From Pilaira anomala (lineage: Eukaryota; Mucoromycota; Mucoromycetes; Mucorales; Mucoraceae): a stretch of DNA of 64,000 nucleotides. Under the pieces are notes generated by a model, which saw only the letters and a program-made list of their open reading frames with translations, was not told the DNA's origin and did no database searches. The position numbers and the translations under genes are program-made. Positions 3,752-59,791 of the stretch are shown one piece after another (positions within the stretch are counted from its first letter, which is position 1; each line of letters opens with the position of its first letter). The DNA is taken from positions 206,001 to 270,000 of the forward strand of contig JAIXMQ010000019.1 of the NCBI GenBank assembly GCA_025716855.1, written 5' to 3'.

Positions 3752-6700
3752 TTAAGCAACAGGACTGTAAAATCCAACAGAGCTCCAATGACTTAAAAAT
3801 TTGTTAAATAACTTAGCATCAAGGACAGGAGACTTTGAAATAAGAGGTGTCAGAGCACTTGTCTTTTTTGTTTCCCAGGTAGGCATTTTGAACGATCCTT
3901 TAAAGCTATCCTCATAGAAACTCATAAGTTTGAAGGCTGGATTGGTATCATTTTTAGATAGTGTGTCGACCCATTCTGAGGAAGAGACAACGTCAAATGT
4001 CATGCCTGTGTCTTTCATAGCTTGGAGTACATCTCTCCAATTGATTATATGAGGATTAACAATGTTATAAACAGATTGATCTACATCAGCAGGCAAGTAG
4101 GCAGTACGGATCATAATATCAGCAATTGACTTGGCGGCATAATCAAGTGTAATCCAATCAATAGTTGTATCTAAGTCAGGCATTTTATGCATAGTGGCTC
4201 CACCACCTATAAACATCAAAGGATACTGCTCGTGAACATTCCACACACCATTGATTGAATCACCACAAACTTGTCCGAGACGTTCAATATAACAGGGAAA
4301 GTTCTTTTGAGTTGTCAAATAATTGAATAAGATTTCGACAATAAACTTGGAATGAGCATAGCCCATAGGCATAGCAATATGGGAATCAAGAGGTAATGGC
4401 TCTTCTGAAACTGTCTCTCCATAAGCGGCACTAGCAGAAACACTTGAGATGAAATGAACATGCATAGGATTGACCTTACGATATGCAAACTTTAACAAGT
4501 TATAGAATGGCGCAATACATTCTTTGTCATAATGATCCACCGGCATATTAAAGTCTAATAACCAAGCACAATGTTGAACAATAGTAATTTCATTTTTGAG
4601 CTCGAAATACTTTTCATCATTGAATCCAAGAAAAGGTTCATTAAAACGCATGGGTAATACTTCAACGCGGCCATCTTTTAAAAGAGAGGTATCAAGAAAT
4701 CGTGATTCAAAAGCATTAATCAAGCGATTCATCAATTGATCAGGATCACCACGAATCATTGCATATACCTTCTTGACAGAGGAATCTAGCAATAAGTCAC
4801 GTAACATGAAGGAACCCAAGGAACCGGTTACACCCGTCAACATAATAACTTTATCTTGTTCTTTATTATACATGTTGGTAGCTTCAGCAAAGTCATTTTC
4901 GGCTTTAATAACATACTCCAAGGCTAATTGTTGAGTTTCTTGATATCTTCTTTCAATTATTTTTTCAGAATCTTCTTCTTTCTTACCCATAAGGACCTTG
5001 CACATTGAAGAGATACTAGGGTTCTGAAAAATAAAGTTTTGAGGGACCTTTTCAAAATGCTCGGCTATATAGTTACGAAGTTGAATTGAAGTAACTGAAG
5101 TAAGGCCATGATCAAATAAAGATTGCGAACGATTGTTAAAAGTAGATTCGGAAAGATGAAGAACTTTGGAAGCACAGGTTACCAAAAAATCTTCTGTTTT
5201 CTTTTCGGTCCAGTTACCATTATTGTCTTGATTCGACTTTTCATTTTTAGGTCCTTCCAAGAAATCCTTGTAAAGTTTTTCAACTACATCTTTATAGAGA
5301 AGTTCAGCCTTCTTTCGCATGACGGTACCTTTATCAGTTGAAGGTAAGCTTTGGTTCAATGGCAATACCTTAACCATCTCAGAAAGAAGAATACTATGAC
5401 TAGGGCATTCTTCGTTTGCACTAGCAACGGCCTTATTGACTTCTAAAATAATTTCTTCTGGAGTAAAACGTATAGCTGATTCCATATCAATTTCGATAAG
5501 AGCAGAGGTACATTGACGATCTTGACCAAGCACAGCAGCTTGTTTGACAACAGGGCTCATACGAAGAGTAGATTCCATTGGAACAGGGTTTGTTTTCTCA
5601 CCATTCAACATCACAAGAGTATCATCACGACGACCAACATAAGTATAATAACCAGGATGTTCGGGATTTACTTTGAACAAGTCATTGGTATCATAACCTC
5701 CATCTGCACGATTGCAAACACCGGCGGCTAATGTAGGAGAATCACCACGAATATATAAATGTACAATTTCAGGATTCTTTTCATCATCTACTTCAAAGAT
5801 ACAATAAGGGTTTCCGGAAAGATCGTGATGACAAGGCGAAAGCGAATGGTAATTGCGACTATTTAAGCTAAGATCGGAGACCATACCAACACCTATTTCA
5901 GTGGTACCGTATATATTTTTAACGTTAAGGCCATGATCAAGAAGCCATTCACCTGCTTCCTTCTTAAGAGAGGCGCCACCATACAATGCAAATTTGAGAC
6001 GTTTTACAGTAGAATAATCATTCTTTTCTTTAATATGAGGGATCATTTGTTCATAAACATATGGAGAAGAAACCATGGCAGTACATTTATTGTACTCTAA
6101 TGCTTGATAGATTTCGTTTTGAGAAGCTGGAAGCTTTTCCAAAAAGACAGATGAAGCACCGATAGAGATGATACTAAGAACAGTAAATACACCAAGGAGA
6201 TGGAAACTATTATAAAAAATATAGATGACAATTAACAAATTATTATTATTATTACTTTTTTTTGAAAAAAAAAGTACTTACAGTGGACCACCACTAAGGA
6301 ATATATCACTATCATCAATTTTAATTGAACCTTCTTTTGCATTATTGATATGAAAGGTATTAACTAAATTAAAAATGTATCTGTTACTGAGATAGATGGG
6401 CTTGGGAAAAGCAGTAGAGCCAGATGAATGAATAATCAAAGCATTTTTTTCAATATCTTGATCCGAAACACTAGTATCGAGCAAGACTTCGTGGTCAAGA
6501 TTGAGAGGATCTGATAAAAGAGTATCGATATCAAGCTCTGGTTCAATTAGGATTATATTTACATTGGGCACTTGGGAAGCAGATGCCTTGGCAATGTCTT
6601 CATACTTTTTACTAGCAATTAGGAGTTCAGATTGAGTTTTTTGCAGTAAGCTAATACAAGCAGCCTCGGAGTTGCGGGGAGAAATAGCCATCATAGTGAC

Positions 6701-53399: not shown

Positions 53400-53974
53400 A
53401 TCCAACTTGTAATCTTTTTTTCAGCATTTTTTCCACTTTCTCTCTTCTTTTTATTATATCAGATACTCGCTTTTTTTTTTTCCTTTTACAAAATAATATA
53501 TATGATGCATTTTTTTTTTCTCTCAATAAACAAGTATACAAACTCTATATCAGTAAAAAAAAAAACAAAAATATGTATCCAAATACATATATTAACAGAA
53601 AATAAGATTAGAAACTTCAAAATATCTACGATATGCGTCTCGCATTGTAACAAAAAAAAAAAAAAAGACCCCTAATGATGTAATATGATAATATACAGTG
53701 TACCTGAATCGAAACATCAAGCGAAATTTTGATTTAAAAATAATTGAATGAACTAAACGAATATTAGATTGACTTCAGCAGTTTTCTAGAAGAAAGCAGT
53801 ACAGCTTATCAGAAACAAATTATGACGTCAGAAAATTCAAGATTACCTAAGATACTTTAAAACGACTTTCAATTTTACCCAATCATATTTCTCTAAATCA
53901 TAATAGTCACGTGAATATCACGTGTTTTAGGGTCTGTACTGGTTATTAAAAATAAAAAACGGATAAATATAGAA
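53400..53974. other. Intergenic region upstream of the tRNA/LINE array
   Basis: Holds the SURF6 3' flank and two CACGTG boxes at 53908 and 53919, the second about 50 bases before the first tRNA-derived 15-mer. No gene recognised. Confidence 0.5.
53907..53924. promoter_or_regulatory. Paired CACGTG boxes, 11 bp apart
   Basis: TCACGTGA (53907) and TCACGTG (53918) have starts 11 bases apart, as at 38795/38806. They end 51 bases before the tRNA-derived sequence. Confidence 0.35.
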
Positions 53975-53989
53975 GCGCGGTTGGTTAAG
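53975..53989 (+). repeat. 15-bp target duplication, copy 1
   Basis: GCGCGGTTGGTTAAG, identical to nucleotides 1-15 of the tRNA-Gly-like gene at 59728. Its left neighbour (TATAGAA) differs from the element sequence that precedes the other copies, so this is the original left boundary of the target. Confidence 0.9.
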
Positions 53990-55642
53990 ATGAATATTAA
54001 TAGTTTATTTTGACAAGCAAGAAAAACTTGAATTCTGTAAAGACGATCCCAAAGAGGGCAATATAAAATAAACAGAAAACAGAGGTTGGTAGTGGGATAT
54101 TAAAATAGTAAAACCATATGGAATGGGAAAAAATAAAAAAGGTTGGTGGTTAAAATAGAAAAAGAGATATAATAAAAGAAGAAATAAAAAGTAAAGTATT
54201 AAGGTCTGATTTCAAGAAAGAGCAGTGCCTATTAAAGTTTTTTTTTTTTTGATTTATAGTGAGTTTTGATTTTTGATTGTTGTTGTGATTTTGTCGTTGT
54301 GATATTGGACAAAGGAATCAAGTTGATCCTTTGTAATCCAAGACTGTTCCTCAAAGAAGCGAGCAACTGCTTTTGCAATGTGATCCCTAATGTAAGGAAG
54401 AGCACGGACGAGACGGTGGTTATGTTTTTCAATTGCAAGTGATGATTTTTCTGTTGAAGAAAGATTCTTGAATTGAGGGTCGGAAATGGTGGTAGGGTGG
54501 GTTGGTGTGTAGTCTGGTAAGTTACTTACACCGTGAGTTTTAAGAATCATAATGAGTTCCTCTCGGTAATCATTATGTACTAATAGTGCAACAACTGTAC
54601 GGCTAGGATAATGAATATCCAAGATCCGATTGTTATTAACACCTAGTGAATTGAGGTTGCTGCGTTGTGTTTTACGGCTTATGCGTGATTTTGAAGGATA
54701 GTAGAGATAGGTGAATCCTTGATGAATGGTGGTAGGAGTTGAAAATGCTGAAAGTGCTTTGTTGATTTGAGTTGTTGTTACTACTTTTTTTTGTTGAGAG
54801 GTTGTAGTAGTTGTTGTAGTATGTATTTTATTTTTTTTGGTGTTTGTATGTTTTGATTTTTTTGTGTTTTGATTTTTATTTTTTGGTGGTGGTGGTTTAG
54901 CTGCAATCTCAGCCCACTTAGATGAAGCTGTTCCACCATTATTGTTGTTAAGTTGTTGTTGGTTGCTGGTATTTGTTGATAATGAATTAGTTGAAGATTC
55001 GCTGGTAATGCTGTCTTCAACTGGTGTCATTTCAATATCTTCTATGCTGGAAGATATTTGTTGTGGTTGTTGTTGTGGTTGTTGTTGTTGATGTTGTTGA
55101 TGTTGATGTTGTTCAATTTGTTGCTGTTGTTGTTCTAGCTGTTGTTGCTGTTGGTCAAGTTGTTGTTCTTGTAAATTTATTTTTTTTATAAGCTGAAGGT
55201 TTTGCTTTTGTAATGCAACACGTTTGGTGGTTGCTTCTTGCTGTTGGGTTTTGAGTTGTAAGATTTCAAGTTCTGCTTCATCAAGTTTTTTTTGAAGAGA
55301 CTTTAAATCCATGTTGTTGTTGTTGTTGTTGTTGGGTGTAGGTGTATGCTTGTTGGTGGGTACCGCAATTGGTGTTCCCCCAGAGAATTTTCCCATAGCT
55401 TGCTTAATTGCAATTTCAACTTGTGCCATAGTAGGTTTCACACTACAGTTGTCACACGTGAAAATAGGAGTAATTGGTGGTGTGGTAGTATTATTTACAT
55501 GACTAAGTGTTCCTTTTTCGAAACACTTTGGACATGCAATAGTAGAATGGATTATATGGAATGACTGAACTGTTGCTTGATTAAATGGATTTAGGTTTTT
55601 CCAAAGAGGATTGAGAGTAGGTGTAGTGTTTAACATTATTAT

Positions 55643-55682
<40 letters not shown>

Positions 55683-55900
55683 AGAAAAAGTGAGAAAAGT
55701 GTTTAAGAAGTAATATGAAGTGTGTTAACAAAAAGTAAACAAAGAAGTTACCAAAAGCACTTTTTCTTTGAAAAAGGATATGGAAAGTCTATGATACGTA
55801 TGTGTATGAGAGTTTTAGAAGTGTTGAAGAGTAAGAGATTTTTTTTTTCAAAAGTTGGTGTAACAATTTAAAAAAAGTTATGTTTAAGCGAAAGAAAAGT
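53990..55900 (-). mobile_element. ORF1-only LINE-like element 1 (most intact)
   Basis: A unit of 1,911 bp bounded by the 15-bp duplications. On the minus strand it runs: leader of about 225 bases (starts ACTTTTCTTTCGCTTAAAC), a T8/A30-type block, the 460-residue ORF, a 3' UTR of about 265 bases and the end ATAAACTATTAATATTCAT. There is no poly(A) tail, no reverse transcriptase and no endonuclease. The long, variable-type target duplication suits target-primed reverse transcription, so it is probably a non-autonomous LINE derivative mobilised in trans. Confidence 0.8.
54254..55636 (-). CDS. LINE ORF1-like nucleic-acid-binding protein
   Basis: An intact 460-residue frame. It begins just after a poly(A) block. 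Regions: an N-terminal four-Cys zinc ribbon (CPKC about 36-39, CDNC about 61-64); a helix (VEIAIKQAMGKF); a Gln-rich coiled coil (about 108-195) with heptad-like Leu; a conserved SSKWAEIAAKPPPP motif (about 235); a Lys/Thr-rich basic segment; and a conserved C-terminal domain (about 300-445: GFTYLYYPSKSRISRKTQRS, LDIHYPSRTVVALLVHNDYR, VARFFEEQSWITKDQL). From memory, proteins with this C-terminal pattern accompany LINE reverse transcriptases in Mucorales. By analogy with L1 ORF1p it may coat its RNA. It is not a chromosomal housekeeping gene as far as I can tell. Confidence 0.75.
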   Translation of the reverse strand: MLNTTPTLNPLWKNLNPFNQATVQSFHIIHSTIACPKCFEKGTLSHVNNTTTPPITPIFTCDNCSVKPTMAQVEIAIKQAMGKFSGGTPIAVPTNKHTPTPNNNNNNNMDLKSLQKKLDEAELEILQLKTQQQEATTKRVALQKQNLQLIKKINLQEQQLDQQQQQLEQQQQQIEQHQHQQHQQQQPQQQPQQISSSIEDIEMTPVEDSITSESSTNSLSTNTSNQQQLNNNNGGTASSKWAEIAAKPPPPKNKNQNTKKSKHTNTKKNKIHTTTTTTTSQQKKVVTTTQINKALSAFSTPTTIHQGFTYLYYPSKSRISRKTQRSNLNSLGVNNNRILDIHYPSRTVVALLVHNDYREELIMILKTHGVSNLPDYTPTHPTTISDPQFKNLSSTEKSSLAIEKHNHRLVRALPYIRDHIAKAVARFFEEQSWITKDQLDSFVQYHNDKITTTIKNQNSL

Positions 55901-55915
55901 GCGCGGTTGGTTAAG
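55901..55915 (+). repeat. 15-bp target duplication, copy 2
   Basis: GCGCGGTTGGTTAAG between elements 1 and 2; exact copy. Confidence 0.9.
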
Positions 55916-57552
55916 ATGAATATTAATAGTTTATTTTGACAAGCAAGAAAAACTTGATTTCTGTAAAGACGATCCCAAAGAGGGCAATATAAAATAAACA
56001 GAAAACAGAGGTTGGTGGTGGGATATTAAAATAGTAAAACCATATATAATGGGAAAAAATAAAAAAGGTTGGTGATTGAAAAGAAAAAGAGATATAAATA
56101 AATGTAGAATTAAAAAAAGTAAAGTAGTAAGACCTGGTTTGAAGAAAGAGCAGTGCCTGTTAAAGTTTTTTTTTTTTGATTTATAGTGATTTTTGGTTTG
56201 AAATTGTTGTTGTGATTTTGTTGTTGTGATATTGGACAAAGGAATCAAGTTGATCCTTTGTAATCCAAGACTGTTCCTCAAAAAATCGAGCAACTGCTTT
56301 GGCAATGTGATCCCTAATAAAAGGAAGAGCACGGACGAGACGGTTGTTGTGTTTTTCAATTGCAAGTGATGATTTTTCTGTGGTAGAAAGATTCTTGAAT
56401 TGTGGATCAGAAATAGTAGTATGGTTGGTTGGTGTGTAGTCTGGTAAGTTACTTACACCGTGTTTTTTGAGAACCATAATAATTTCCTCTCGGTAATCAT
56501 TATGCACTAATAGTGCAACAACTGTACGGCTAGGATAATGGATATCCAAGACCCGACTGTTATTAACACCAAGTGAAGTAAGGTTGCTGCGTTGTGTTTT
56601 ACGGCTTATGCGAGATTTTGATTGGTAGTAAAGGTATGTAAATCCTTGGTGAGTTGTTTTAGGTGCGGAAAGTGCTGAAAGTGCTTTATTAATTTGAATT
56701 GTTGTTACTACTTTTTTTTGTTGAGAGGATGTAGTAGTATTTGTTGTAGTGCGTATTTTATTTTTTTTGGTGTTTGTATTTTTTGATTTTTTTGTATTTT
56801 GTGTTTTATTTTTTGGTGGTGGTGGTGGTTTAGCTGCAATCTCAGCCCATTTAGATGAAGCTGTTCCACCATTATTGTTTTTAAGTTGTTGTTGTTGGTT
56901 GTTAGCATTTGCTGATAAAGAACAAGTTGAAGAATTGCTGGTAATGCTGTCTTCAACTGTTGGCATTTCAATATCTTCAATGCTGGAAGATATTTGTTGT
57001 TGCTGTTGTTGTTGCTGTTGTAGTTGTTGATGTTGTAGTTGTTGTTGATGTTGTTGTTGTTGTTGGTCCAGTTGTTGGTGTAACTCCAAGTTTTGTTTTT
57101 TTAATGCAGCATATTTGTTGGCTGCTTCTTGTTGTTGTAATTTGAGACTTGTAATTACAAGTTCTGCTTCCTTGACCTTGGAAAGTAGAGATTGTAAATC
57201 CAAGTTAAGTTTGTTGTTGTTGTTGTTGTTGTTGTTGGTTGTTGTGATAGTAGTAGTAGTAGTGTGCTTGCTGGGTACCGCAATTGGTGCTCCCCCAGTA
57301 AATTTCCCAGTGCTTGCTTAATTGCAATTTCAATTTGTGTCATGGTAGGTTTCACCCCACACTTGTCACACATGAAAACTGGTGTGATTGGTATTGTTGT
57401 AGTATTATTTACATGGAAAAGTGTTCCTTTTTGAAACACTTGGGACATGTAATGGAAGAATGTATTAAAACGAATGACTGAACTGTTGCTTGTTGAAATG
57501 GATTTAAGTCTTTCCAAAGTGGGTTTGAGTTGTGATTGTGTTTAACATTATA

Positions 57553-57595
<43 letters not shown>

Positions 57596-57803
57596 TAAGA
57601 AAAGTGTTTAAGAAGTAATAAGAAGTGTGTTAACAAAAAGTAAACAAAGAAGATACCAAAAGCACTTTTTCTTTGAAAAAGGATATGGAAAGTCTATGAT
57701 ACTTTGTGTATGAGAGTTTTAGAAGTGTTTAAGAGTAAGAGATTTTTTTTTCAAAAGTTGGTGTAACAATTTAAAAAAAGTGATGTTTAAGCGAAAGAAA
57801 AGT
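55916..57803 (-). mobile_element. ORF1-only LINE-like element 2
   Basis: A unit of 1,888 bp, collinear with element 1 over its whole length, including leader, T/A block and 3' end. The coding part is frameshifted near its start. Confidence 0.8.
56181..57548 (-). pseudogene. Frameshifted ORF1-like gene of element 2
   Basis: A start matching that of element 1 (ATG at 57548, MLNT) soon loses frame; the zinc-ribbon part then reads in another frame (NPLWKDLNPFQQATVQSF), and a second shift near 57200-57300 leads to an open 340-residue frame (57203-56181) from the coiled coil to the C-terminus. The C-terminal 160 residues are about 87% identical to element 1 by eye and have no stops. The breaks are small indels in short runs. 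A shorter protein without the zinc ribbon could still be made from 57203. Confidence 0.7.
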
Positions 57804-57818
57804 GCGCGGTTGGTTAAG
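57804..57818 (+). repeat. 15-bp target duplication, copy 3
   Basis: GCGCGGTTGGTTAAG between elements 2 and 3; exact copy. Confidence 0.9.
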
Positions 57819-58907
57819 ATGAATATTAATTGTTTATTTTGACAAGCAAGAAAAACAGAATTCTGTTAAGGACGATCCCGAAAGAGGGCAATATAAGTTA
57901 AACAGAAAACAGAGGTTGAAAGTGGGATATTAAAATAGTAAAACCATAAAGAATGGGAAAAAATAAAAAAGGTTGGTGGTTAAAATAGAAGAAGGGATAT
58001 ATATATAAAGTAGAAGTAAAAAAGAATAGTAGTAAGGTCTGATTTCAAGAAAGAGCAGTACCTGTTAGTTTTTTTTTTTTTGATTTATAGGGAGTTTTGG
58101 TTTGTGATTGTTGTTGCGATTTTTTCGTTGTGAGATTGTATAAAGGAATCAAGTTGATCCTTGGTAATCCAAGACTGTTCCTTAAAAAAGCGAGCAACTG
58201 CTTTTGCAATGTGATCCCTTATAAAAGGAAGAGCACGGACGAGACGGTGGTTGTTTTTTTCAATTGCTAAAGAAGATTTTTCTGTGACAGAAAGATTCTT
58301 GAATTGAGGGTCGGAAATGGTGGTGTGGTGTGTTGGTGTGTAGTCTGGTAAATTACTTACACCGTGTTTTTTGAGAATCATAATGATTTCCTCTCGGTAA
58401 TCATTATGCACTAGTAATGCGACGACTGTACGGCTAGGATAATGGATATCCAAGACCCGACTGTTGTTAACACCAAGTGAATGAAGGTTGCTGCGTTGTG
58501 ATTTACGGCTTATGCGAGATTTTGAGTGATAATAAAGATATGTAAATCCTTGATGAGTGGTTGTAGGTACTGAAAAAGATTTCAGTGCTTTATTGATTTG
58601 ATTTGTTGTAGCTACTTTTTTTTTTGAGAGGATGTAGTAGTTGTAGTTCGTATTTTATTTGATTTTTTTGTGTTTATGATTTTATTTTTAGGTGGTGATG
58701 GTGGTTTAGCTGCAATCTCAGCCCACTTAGATGAAGCTGTGCCACCATTATTGTTGTTTAGTTGTTGTTGGTTGTTGATTTTAGGAGATGTGGCAGAAGA
58801 AGAATCGCTGTCAAAGGTGTCTTCATCTACGGTTGTCATCTCAATATCTTCAATGGTAGAAGATACTACTGGTTGCTGTTGCTGATGTTGTTGTAATTGT
58901 TGTTGTA

Positions 58908-58946
<39 letters not shown>

Positions 58947-59474
58947 CAATTGTTGTGTTGTTGTTCTAGTTGTGTTGTTGTTGGACAAGTTGTTGTTCTT
59001 GTAAATTTGTTTTTTTGATAAGCTGAAGGTTCTGCTTTTGTAAGGCAACACGCTTGGTGGTTGCTTCTTGTTGTTGGTTATAAGTTTTATGATTTCAAGT
59101 TCTGCTTCCTCAAGTTTTTTTTGAAGTGACTTTAAATCCATGTTGTTGTTATTGTTGTTGATGTTGTTGTTGTTGGTGTAGGTGTAGATTGGTGGTGGGT
59201 ACCGCAATTGGTGTTCCCCCAGAGAATTTTCCCAGAGCTTGTTTTATTGCAATTTCAATTGTGCCATGTAGGTTTCACACTACATTGTCACACGTGAAAA
59301 TGGGAGTAATTGGTTGTTGGTGGTATTATTTACATGATAAGTGTTCCTTTTTTGAAACACTTTGGACATGCAATGGTCGAATGGTTATGTTGAATGACTG
59401 AACTGTTGCTTGGTTAAAAGGATTTAGGTCTTTCCAAAGTGGATTGATAATATTTTTGTGTTGAGCATTATTAT

Positions 59475-59507
<33 letters not shown>

Positions 59508-59727
59508 AGGAAAAAAGAAAAGTGTTTAAAGATAATAATATGTAGAGTGTTAATACAAAGTAAACAAAGAAGATACCAAAAGCGCTTTTTCTTTGAAAAA
59601 GGGTATGGGAAGTCTATGATACGATTGTATGTGAGAGATTTAGAGGTGTTTAAGAAGTAAGAGGTTTTTTTTTTTCAAAAATTGGTGTAACAATTTAAAA
59701 AAAGTGATGTTTAAGCGAAAGAAAAGT
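57819..59727 (-). mobile_element. ORF1-only LINE-like element 3 (most decayed)
   Basis: A unit of 1,909 bp, collinear with elements 1 and 2. The leader, T/A block and 3' end are kept; the coding part carries several small indels. Confidence 0.8.
58085..59468 (-). pseudogene. Multiply broken ORF1-like gene of element 3
   Basis: The equivalent start is at 59468. Frame is lost in the zinc-ribbon region, in the Gln-rich coil (59207-58866 reads partly out of frame) and at an A run near 58615. The C-terminal domain stays open to 58085 (LDIHYPSRTVVALLVHNDYR conserved). It is the least intact of the three copies. Confidence 0.7.
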
Positions 59728-59791
59728 GCGCGGTTGGTTAAGTGGTATAATCTGCTGCCACGCGGAGGCCGGGTTCGATTCCCGACGCGCA
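59728..59791 (+). tRNA. tRNA-Gly(GCC)-like gene, shortened, insertion target
   Basis: The sequence has a good A box (TGGTTAAGTGG), a perfect B box (GGTTCGATTCC), anticodon-loop text TGCCAC pointing to GCC, and a T5 terminator at 59795-59799. The start GCGCGG pairs with CGCGC near the end. It is only 64 bases long, against about 71 for tRNA-Gly. The anticodon loop is 6 rather than 7 and some stem pairs are missing (acceptor position 6, T-stem top). It is therefore probably a decayed tRNA-Gly gene, though promoter boxes survive. Its first 15 bases are the direct repeat found at every element junction. Confidence 0.6.

Follow-up and report, generated by a model that had tools for sequence, protein, structure and literature searches.

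An array of ORF1-only LINE-like units at a tRNA-Gly gene of Pilaira anomala and its relatives at other tRNA genes

Three units upstream of a tRNA-Gly gene

We analysed a 64,000-nucleotide stretch of the fungus Pilaira anomala (GCA_025716855.1, contig JAIXMQ010000019.1, positions 206,001-270,000 of the forward strand). This whole stretch is referred to here as the window, and coordinates without a contig name are window positions. The window contains three related units, numbered 1 to 3, which stand head to tail in front of a tRNA-Gly(GCC) gene (Table 1). They encode at most the first open reading frame (ORF1) of a long interspersed nuclear element (LINE). The units are very probably ORF1-only, non-autonomous members of a LINE lineage that carries an endonuclease and a reverse transcriptase and inserts at one fixed point of tRNA genes. 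Other contigs of the assembly are denoted by C and a number, and loci fetched around matches by L and a number.

The 15-mer GCGCGGTTGGTTAAG, with which the tRNA gene begins, is found exactly four times in the window, at 53975, 55901, 57804 and 59728. Allowing up to three mismatches yields five matches, against a mean of 0.46 in shuffled sequence. An earlier note on this DNA had described three collinear head-to-tail units of about 1.9 kb, a single 15-mer at each junction that equals the start of the closing tRNA-Gly gene, and a lack of reverse transcriptase. All three descriptions hold: the units measure 1911, 1888 and 1909 nt between 15-mers and are 88.6% (units 1 and 2), 86.4% (units 1 and 3) and 83.5% (third pair) identical, the 15-mer is exact at all four boundaries, and inspection of the reading frames revealed no reverse transcriptase ORF in any of the three window units. 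The units had also been described as stacked inside one tRNA gene. Their fixed position at tRNA-Gly is borne out, but the gene is not split: it has been regenerated whole to the right of the array, and the part duplicated upstream is its 5' end. The 5' end of the element adjoins nucleotide 1 of the tRNA, and the ORFs of the units lie on the minus strand, antisense to the tRNA. The ORF2 sequences of three relatives did not match the 270-nt tail of unit 1, the only tail compared, and RNA folding at the 3' ends of the three units was not notable (z about -1.0 to -1.2). Judged by their sequence, the window units can only be non-autonomous members, at most, of the group of apurinic-endonuclease-type non-LTR (long terminal repeat) retrotransposons, or LINEs.

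Table 1. Features of the array and of the adjoining tRNA-Gly gene, in window coordinates
Feature	Position	Strand	Remarks
CACGTG-N5-CACGTG pair of the native tRNA-Gly upstream region	53908..53924	.	From sequence and comparison with C101:259908
Target-site duplication 1 = tRNA-Gly nt 1-14	53975..53988	+	G53989 assignable to either side
Unit 1, ORF1-only LINE derivative	53989..55900	-	5' end 55900, 3' end 53989; 100% identical to C158 copy over 1443 nt
AATAAA near unit 1 3' end	54004..54009	-	No poly(A) tail at junction
ORF1 of unit 1, 460 aa, open	54254..55636	-	Zinc ribbon (by eye), coiled coil, C-terminal domain
TTAAGCGAAAGAAAAG, variant of the LINE 5'-end motif	55884..55899	+	As read on the tRNA strand
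Target-site duplication 2 = tRNA-Gly nt 1-14	55901..55914	+	
Unit 2, ORF1-only LINE derivative	55915..57803	-	ORF pieces 57155-57517 and 56181-57203 as assembled
Target-site duplication 3 = tRNA-Gly nt 1-14	57804..57817	+	
Unit 3, ORF1-only LINE derivative	57818..59727	-	ORF pieces 58866-59207 and 58085-58453 as assembled
tRNA-Gly(GCC) gene, 64 nt as assembled	59728..59791	+	Against 71-nt copy: 7 deletions, no substitution

The insertion point

The 15-mer has 14 exact occurrences in the genome (34.25 Mb), and its reversed control has none. Five of them are starts of tRNA-Gly genes, eight are LINE 3' junctions and one is neither. Duplicated tRNA starts were found at the 3' ends of LINEs for five isotypes: Gly (GCGCGGTTGGTTAA), Thr (GCCTTCTTGGCTCA), Trp (GGGAGATTGGCTCA), Ala (GGGGTTGTAGCTCA) and His (GCTGGTATAGTATA). 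The base that follows the duplication was G in all junctions read. Since nucleotide 15 of the tRNA is A in Ala and Trp, this G belongs to the element, and the duplication comprises exactly nucleotides 1-14, ending at A14. In Gly, His and Thr, tRNA and element both have G as the following base, which leaves the boundary ambiguous (14 or 15 nt for Gly and His, 14 to 17 nt for Thr) and compatible with nucleotides 1-14. A duplication of this extent would place the first nick in the A box.

At the other end, the LINEs begin at tRNA nucleotide 1 or a few bases away from it, with a common motif. Two exact forms of this motif occur nine and eight times in the genome, with no occurrence of the reversed controls. 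All 17 sites are followed within 22 nt either by a tRNA gene (10: His, Thr twice, Gly, Pro, Lys three times, Phe and Trp, Phe being assigned from the anticodon as we read it) or by a duplicated tRNA 5' end together with a LINE 3' end (7: His, Ala three times, Thr twice and one imperfect Phe-like). Twelve of these sites lie in the loci from which the motifs were chosen. The five independent sites (C68, C112, C59, C84 and C97:11284) all fit the tRNA pattern. The targeted isotypes thus include Gly, Ala, Thr, Trp, His, Lys, Pro and Phe.

Association with tRNA genes across the genome

Searching the genome with the ORF1 protein retrieved 61 matches, many of them near reverse transcriptase matches and tRNA genes. 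Beside ORF1 relatives, ARAGORN identified genes for tRNA-Gly, His, Thr, Trp, Lys and Ala. L042 also has two tRNA-Glu genes, neither of them at an identifiable LINE junction. The arrangement was quantified with 61 tRNA genes from an Rfam search (63 scored of 1882 first-look candidates), which were chosen by score and not by neighbourhood, and with 51 ORF1 places, 10 of the 61 matches having been dropped as second pieces of the same copy. An ORF1 relative lay within 3 kb upstream and antisense at six of the 61 tRNA genes, where about 0.14 would be expected, and none was found in each of the three other arrangements. Within 6-10 kb of tRNA genes there was one more ORF1 relative, upstream in sense orientation. 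A control of 61 places with LTR-type reverse transcriptase, an incomplete list picked by the short span of the match, gave 0/61 within 3 kb and one within 6-10 kb.

The tRNA-Gly gene of the window has four homologues elsewhere (C90, C171, C156 and C144), all of which ARAGORN recognises as tRNA-Gly; it makes no tRNA call for the 64-nt window copy. Compared with the 71-nt copy on C156, the deletions of the window gene lie in or at runs of G or C. LINE 5'-end sequence stands directly upstream of every one of the five tRNA-Gly(GCC) genes found in the assembly, while the native flank has been kept by a tRNA-Gly gene with another anticodon on C28.

A trace of the native flank is also present in the window. 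The sequence CACGTG-N5-CACGTG stands 50 nt before the first duplication, on its left, and is by now some 5.8 kb away from the tRNA. It occurs at 150 places in the genome (reversed control, 0) and was found 55-61 nt upstream in 8 of 17 comparable tRNA genes, namely those of the 61 whose contigs are completely covered by the first 50 of the 150 places listed. This points to an upstream element that the tRNA genes of this organism have in common. The four LINE-bearing genes among the 17 (C1, C84, C97 and C79:567828) have no such pair nearby, and on C1 it is located 5107 nt upstream. The displacement of the pair at LINE-bearing genes indicates that the LINEs seem to have come in between pair and tRNA, which we count as independent support.

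Other copies of the window family

In a search of the genome at the DNA level with unit 1 as the query, scores were obtained for 40 of the 268 candidates, which makes the copy number a lower bound; many low-complexity matches were set aside. The contig of the copy on C158, to which unit 1 is identical, ends within the unit. A copy on C164 is 88% identical to unit 1, and its contig also ends. The copy on C154 (93% identity in the search, 97.4% over ungapped columns) has kept its 3' end and lacks its 5' part. Internal pieces of the family were retrieved from C152 and C182, away from tRNA genes, and divergent relatives of unit 1 from C16 and C70. The idea that most other copies might lie away from tRNA-Gly genes is not supported, as five of the six copies with a retained 3' end (the three window units, C158 and C164) are at the tRNA-Gly 15-mer. 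Those on C158 and C164 carry the 15-mer at their 3' junction and stand in surroundings unlike those of the window: the flank on C158 resembles that of the window for about 166 nt only, and that on C164 not beyond the 15-mer.

In the tree, unit 1 grouped with the C158 and C154 copies (support 100/99), apart from units 2 and 3, and the branching order of unit 2, unit 3 and C152 came out without resolution. On the columns shared with C154 and C158, unit 1 was nearer those copies than units 2 and 3 in 1000 of 1000 resamplings. On the columns shared with C152 and C164 this was so in fractions of 0.178 and 0.013, and units 1 and 2 were closest to each other. Unit 1 is the most intact of the three and has an identical copy elsewhere; in units 2 and 3, decay is hard to separate from probable consensus errors.

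Full-length and ORF1-only relatives

Elements with endonuclease and reverse transcriptase that use the same 15-bp target are represented on C144. Upstream of the tRNA-Gly gene of that contig are a 2374-nt ORF1-only element (C144-A), whose ORF1 is in two overlapping pieces, and then a 6104-nt element (C144-B), each bounded by the 15-mer. C144-B encodes ORF1 and an ORF2 with RVT_1 and a partial endonuclease; a frameshift interrupts this ORF2 close to its start. The two elements align in their 5' part, in ORF1 and in their last 238 bp, and C144-A lacks about 4 kb in between. This loss is a direct example of the ORF2 loss that we propose for the window units.

Further relatives were found at tRNA genes of several isotypes. 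At a tRNA-Ala gene on C193, a 469-nt 5'-truncated copy, a 5559-nt full-length element and a 1958-nt ORF1-only element stand together. The 469-nt copy retains 69 aa of the ORF2 C-terminus at 71% identity and an intact 3' end; together with the C154 copy, it shows 5' truncation with a constant 3' end. The 1958-nt element is 97% identical to one beside the tRNA-Gly gene on C90, which has an Ala duplication on its 3' side. There are thus at least three ORF1-only subfamilies (the window type, C144-A and C193/C90), which likely had separate origins. Directly at the tRNA-Gly gene on C156, ORF1 and the start of ORF2 run off the contig. On C70, ORF1 and the start of ORF2 are next to a 15-mer, and C16 carries ORF1 and pieces of endonuclease and reverse transcriptase, with no 15-mer in the stretch examined. 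Contigs C158, C164, C156 and C16 all end inside LINE units of this lineage, and LINE arrays at tRNA genes probably break the assembly.

The LINEs of the Thr array on C192 and of the Trp gene on C158 share 99.93% identity over 1524 bp; a single element type, active recently, has therefore reached two isotypes. The 5' region of the LINE at tRNA-Trp (L042, C158:130000-139900, about 697-2839) has about 2.1 kb of extra sequence relative to the near-identical LINE of the Thr array. The ORF2 products of C158 and C193 matched the Pfam families Exo_endo_phos, Exo_endo_phos_2 and RVT_1, and that of C16 the endonuclease part. Among solved structures, the C158 ORF2 was closest to human LINE-1 ORF2 (E 1.3e-21), followed by a 'Reverse transcriptase-like protein' (8gh6, 9.1e-17) and chains named R2 (1.4e-11).

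The ORF1 protein and its conservation

The claim that each unit encodes a protein applies fully to unit 1, whose ORF1 is open; units 2 and 3 are frameshifted as assembled. The proposed architecture is zinc ribbon, coiled coil and C-terminal domain. A structure model (mean predicted local distance difference test score 66) contains a long helix at residues 111-184 and a confident C-terminal domain at 306-457. The zinc ribbon is a by-eye reading of the pattern CPKC...CDNC in unit 1. No Pfam family exceeded its cut-off on ORF1, with Vps36-NZF-N (5.9e-4) below cut-off on a piece of unit 2. A profile of ORF1 compared with solved structures retrieved nothing better than E 0.013, mostly coiled-coil look-alikes. 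A fold search with the model gave no match at E <=0.001, and the small ferredoxin/RRM-like matches that it returned (DbpA, E 0.17) amount to no more than a hint.

Relative to unit 1, ORF1 contains 27 insertions or deletions, 10 in unit 2 and 17 in unit 3, counts that depend on the MAFFT alignment. Fifteen are 1-nt deletions, none is a 1-nt insertion, 11 are multiples of three and one is an insertion of 22 nt. The 1-nt deletions cluster, without 1-nt insertions, at 57290-59791, which covers units 2 and 3 and the tRNA. One-sided deletions of this kind, together with the shortened tRNA, give the impression of consensus errors in the right-hand part of the array; decay is also possible.

The ratio of nonsynonymous to synonymous substitution rates (dN/dS) in frame was 0.36 (units 1 and 2), 0.29 (units 1 and 3) and 0.28 (units 2 and 3), compared with 0.95-1.6 in shifted frames. 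It was 0.18-0.25 against the C154 copy and 0.33-0.38 against the C152 piece. With a dN/dS of about 0.3, ORF1 of the window units appears, from these sequence comparisons, to have stayed under selection while ORF2 was gone. As one ORF1-only layout is common to units 1-3, selection would have acted at least partly on ORF1-only elements, barring separate losses of ORF2.

Alternative explanations

Several observations weigh against a LINE lineage that is bound to tRNA genes and accompanied by selected ORF1-only forms. In the stretches examined, ARAGORN found no tRNA gene beside the ORF1 relatives at L010, L011, L013, L014, L015, L041, L043 and L047; L014 contains the 15-mer, and several of the loci without a tRNA gene are fragments or near contig ends. 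The 15-mer at C157:143010-143024 (L057, C157:142900-143130) is accompanied by neither LINE nor tRNA gene. On C171, the tRNA-Gly gene is preceded by a LINE 5' end of only about 42 nt, and the stretch examined showed no LINE ORF. The C154 copy has the family 3' end away from any tRNA, with neither the 15-mer nor a clear duplication. All seven units whose ends were compared (unit 1, C144-A, C144-B, three on C193 and one on C90) end in AATAAA followed by 14-17 nt, without an A tail. A full-length element with the window family's own 3' UTR (untranslated region), which could serve as helper for the window units, was not found. In the comparisons with C152 one shifted frame also had a dN/dS below 1 (0.57-0.82), and the in-frame values could partly mirror selection that preceded the loss of ORF2. 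The array on C90 belongs here as well, since its Ala duplication within a tRNA-Gly array makes it seem that recombination between isotype arrays also shapes arrays. In that array (L033, C90:537000-546900, minus strand near 5494), a tRNA-Ala duplication junction stands beside the tRNA-Gly gene.

It is improbable that the array arose by tandem duplication of a single insertion, or of a host gene, through unequal crossing-over, with only the first copy having transposed. Unequal exchange would also produce head-to-tail order and a single 15-mer per junction, the C90 array looks recombinant, and units 1 and 2 are nearer each other on the columns shared with C152 and C164, while the tree does not resolve units 2 and 3. 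However, unit 1 resembles the C158 and C154 copies far more than its neighbours in the array, and the stacks at Ala, Thr and another Gly locus mix different elements with separate duplications. A simple recent duplication, which the earlier note had named as the alternative, is thus excluded for unit 1 through its grouping with C158 and C154; this exclusion covers unit 1 alone and does not extend to units 2 and 3. Integration of the units by a site-specific DNA recombinase at an att-like site of 14-15 bp is hardly credible. The single site copy per junction and the tandem arrays at a tRNA gene do resemble islands made by recombinases, but no recombinase ORF was seen in the units and their relatives have endonuclease and reverse transcriptase. 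The 5'-truncated C193 copy with its intact 3' end and the tRNA-specific duplications fit target-primed reverse transcription. We rejected a recombinase island on account of the reverse transcriptase-bearing relatives and the 5' truncation.

How the target is recognised, and whether ORF1 matters to the short forms, are questions on which the alternatives deserve more weight. Targeting might proceed through the RNA polymerase III machinery on the tRNA gene, as proposed for the TRE elements of Dictyostelium, so that the fixed cut would follow from geometry rather than from a sequence preference of the endonuclease. We consider this a real possibility, if a somewhat doubtful one. Many isotypes are struck, also by near-identical elements, and the five duplication types have little in common outside the A box. 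On the other hand, the cut is constant to the base in Ala and Trp and compatible in Gly, His and Thr, as in sequence-specific LINEs, whereas TRE5-A, in the passages of PMC3706591 that describe it, inserts close to its target and not at a fixed position inside it. The ORF1-only form could also be passive, that is, internally deleted LINEs in which ORF1 has no role and a dN/dS below 1 was inherited from full-length ancestors. C144-A is indeed an internal deletion of a full-length element type, and ORF1 is frameshifted in several copies as assembled, but units 1-3 have a common structure that is probably older than their divergence, and dN/dS has been about 0.3 from that point on. The frameshifts moreover resemble consensus errors, with 11 of the 12 insertions or deletions other than the 1-nt deletions being multiples of three. 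We regard a passive form as rather unlikely, though plausible enough to be kept in view.

Proposed mechanism

The core of the earlier note, that ORF1-only LINE-type elements inserted repeatedly at one position of tRNA-Gly, is retained, and the picture has widened to many isotypes, a regenerated tRNA gene, full-length relatives and at least three ORF1-only subfamilies. If the units are members of a LINE lineage, the endonuclease would nick the sense strand of the tRNA gene between A14 and nucleotide 15, in the A box, and reverse transcription of the element RNA would start from the nicked 3' end. A cut of the second strand at about tRNA nucleotide 1 would then give rise to the 14-bp duplication. 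The insert would come to lie antisense and upstream, with the first 14 nucleotides duplicated and the tRNA gene rebuilt and available to the next insertion, so that arrays could grow. The window units, having no ORF2, would borrow endonuclease and reverse transcriptase from full-length relatives with the same target.

A more speculative scheme, which we offer tentatively and think unlikely as a whole, treats the duplicated tRNA start as an address tag. The lineage would land on the A box of any tRNA gene; since an antisense copy of tRNA nucleotides 1-14 follows directly on the 3' end of each element, read-through RNA would carry it, pair with the nicked strand and steer copies to matching tRNA genes. 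ORF1-only satellites, contributing an ORF1 of their own and borrowing endonuclease and reverse transcriptase, would ride along. The scheme, each step of which is conjectural, would be consistent with 3' junctions that are exact and have no poly(A) tail, and with the way in which Gly-type elements cluster at Gly genes. It is strained by the near-identical elements at Thr and Trp genes, the first 14 nucleotides of which share TTGGCTCA.

Comparison with known systems

Targeted LINEs are usually described with a single target gene. In P. anomala, one lineage exploits a feature common to tRNA genes, and insertion restores the target, so that arrays can grow without killing the tRNA gene. The pattern suggests a retrotransposon lineage living off tRNA genes alongside stripped-down versions of itself. 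The five tRNA-Gly(GCC) genes in which a LINE replaces the native 5' flank are a natural test of the need for the upstream region, the precise target specificity of a LINE endonuclease is open to study, and the ORF1-only satellites of several subfamilies make a cis requirement for ORF1 testable. LINEs targeted to tRNA genes are already known; the apparently undescribed part, a weakly supported judgement, is A-box targeting of many isotypes with ORF1-only satellites. Limited open-access literature searches, which support absence from print only weakly, yielded no description of an apurinic-endonuclease-type, A-box-specific, many-isotype fungal LINE or of ORF1-only derivatives.

A counterpart of the ORF1-only form is HAL1 (half-L1) of mammals, which has kept ORF1, lost ORF2, presumably obtains endonuclease and reverse transcriptase in trans, and is dispersed and not known to be target-specific. 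In contrast, the present forms are at tRNA genes, with at least three subfamilies in one genome. Ends shared with a full-length element, as expected of a HAL1-type derivative, are seen for C144-A and C144-B. The poly(A) or A-rich 3' tail that marks L1 is absent from the seven units whose ends were compared.

Dewa of zebrafish is a LINE of the Tx1 clade. It is likewise linked to tRNA genes but inserts in the tRNA-Leu spacer, according to the relevant passage of PMC3706591, whereas the present lineage inserts inside the gene. TRE5-A, which seeks tRNA genes (same source and passages), keeps a loose distance; the point of insertion here is fixed at A14|15 (resolved for Ala and Trp, compatible for Gly, His and Thr), with a 14-bp duplication. 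The Dada DNA transposons also insert inside tRNA genes. In Perkinsus, some of their families duplicate the A-box sequence TAGCTC, and every Perkinsus family is stated to target its own tRNA genes only (PMC3706591). Dada elements have a DDE transposase and duplications of 6-7 bp, as against reverse transcriptase and endonuclease in the relatives of our units and duplications of 14 bp. Reported as specific for tRNA genes, too, are the non-LTR retrotransposons NeSL-1_TV (tRNA-Pro), LIN15_SM (tRNA-Arg) and LIN25_SM (tRNA-Glu). In the portion of PMC4640811 that treats them, these are placed with NeSL relatives, with a restriction-like endonuclease and one isotype each, whereas the P. anomala lineage combines matches to the apurinic-type Exo_endo_phos/Exo_endo_phos_2 families and a reverse transcriptase that is, among solved structures, nearest to that of human L1 with insertion into many isotypes at one structural position.

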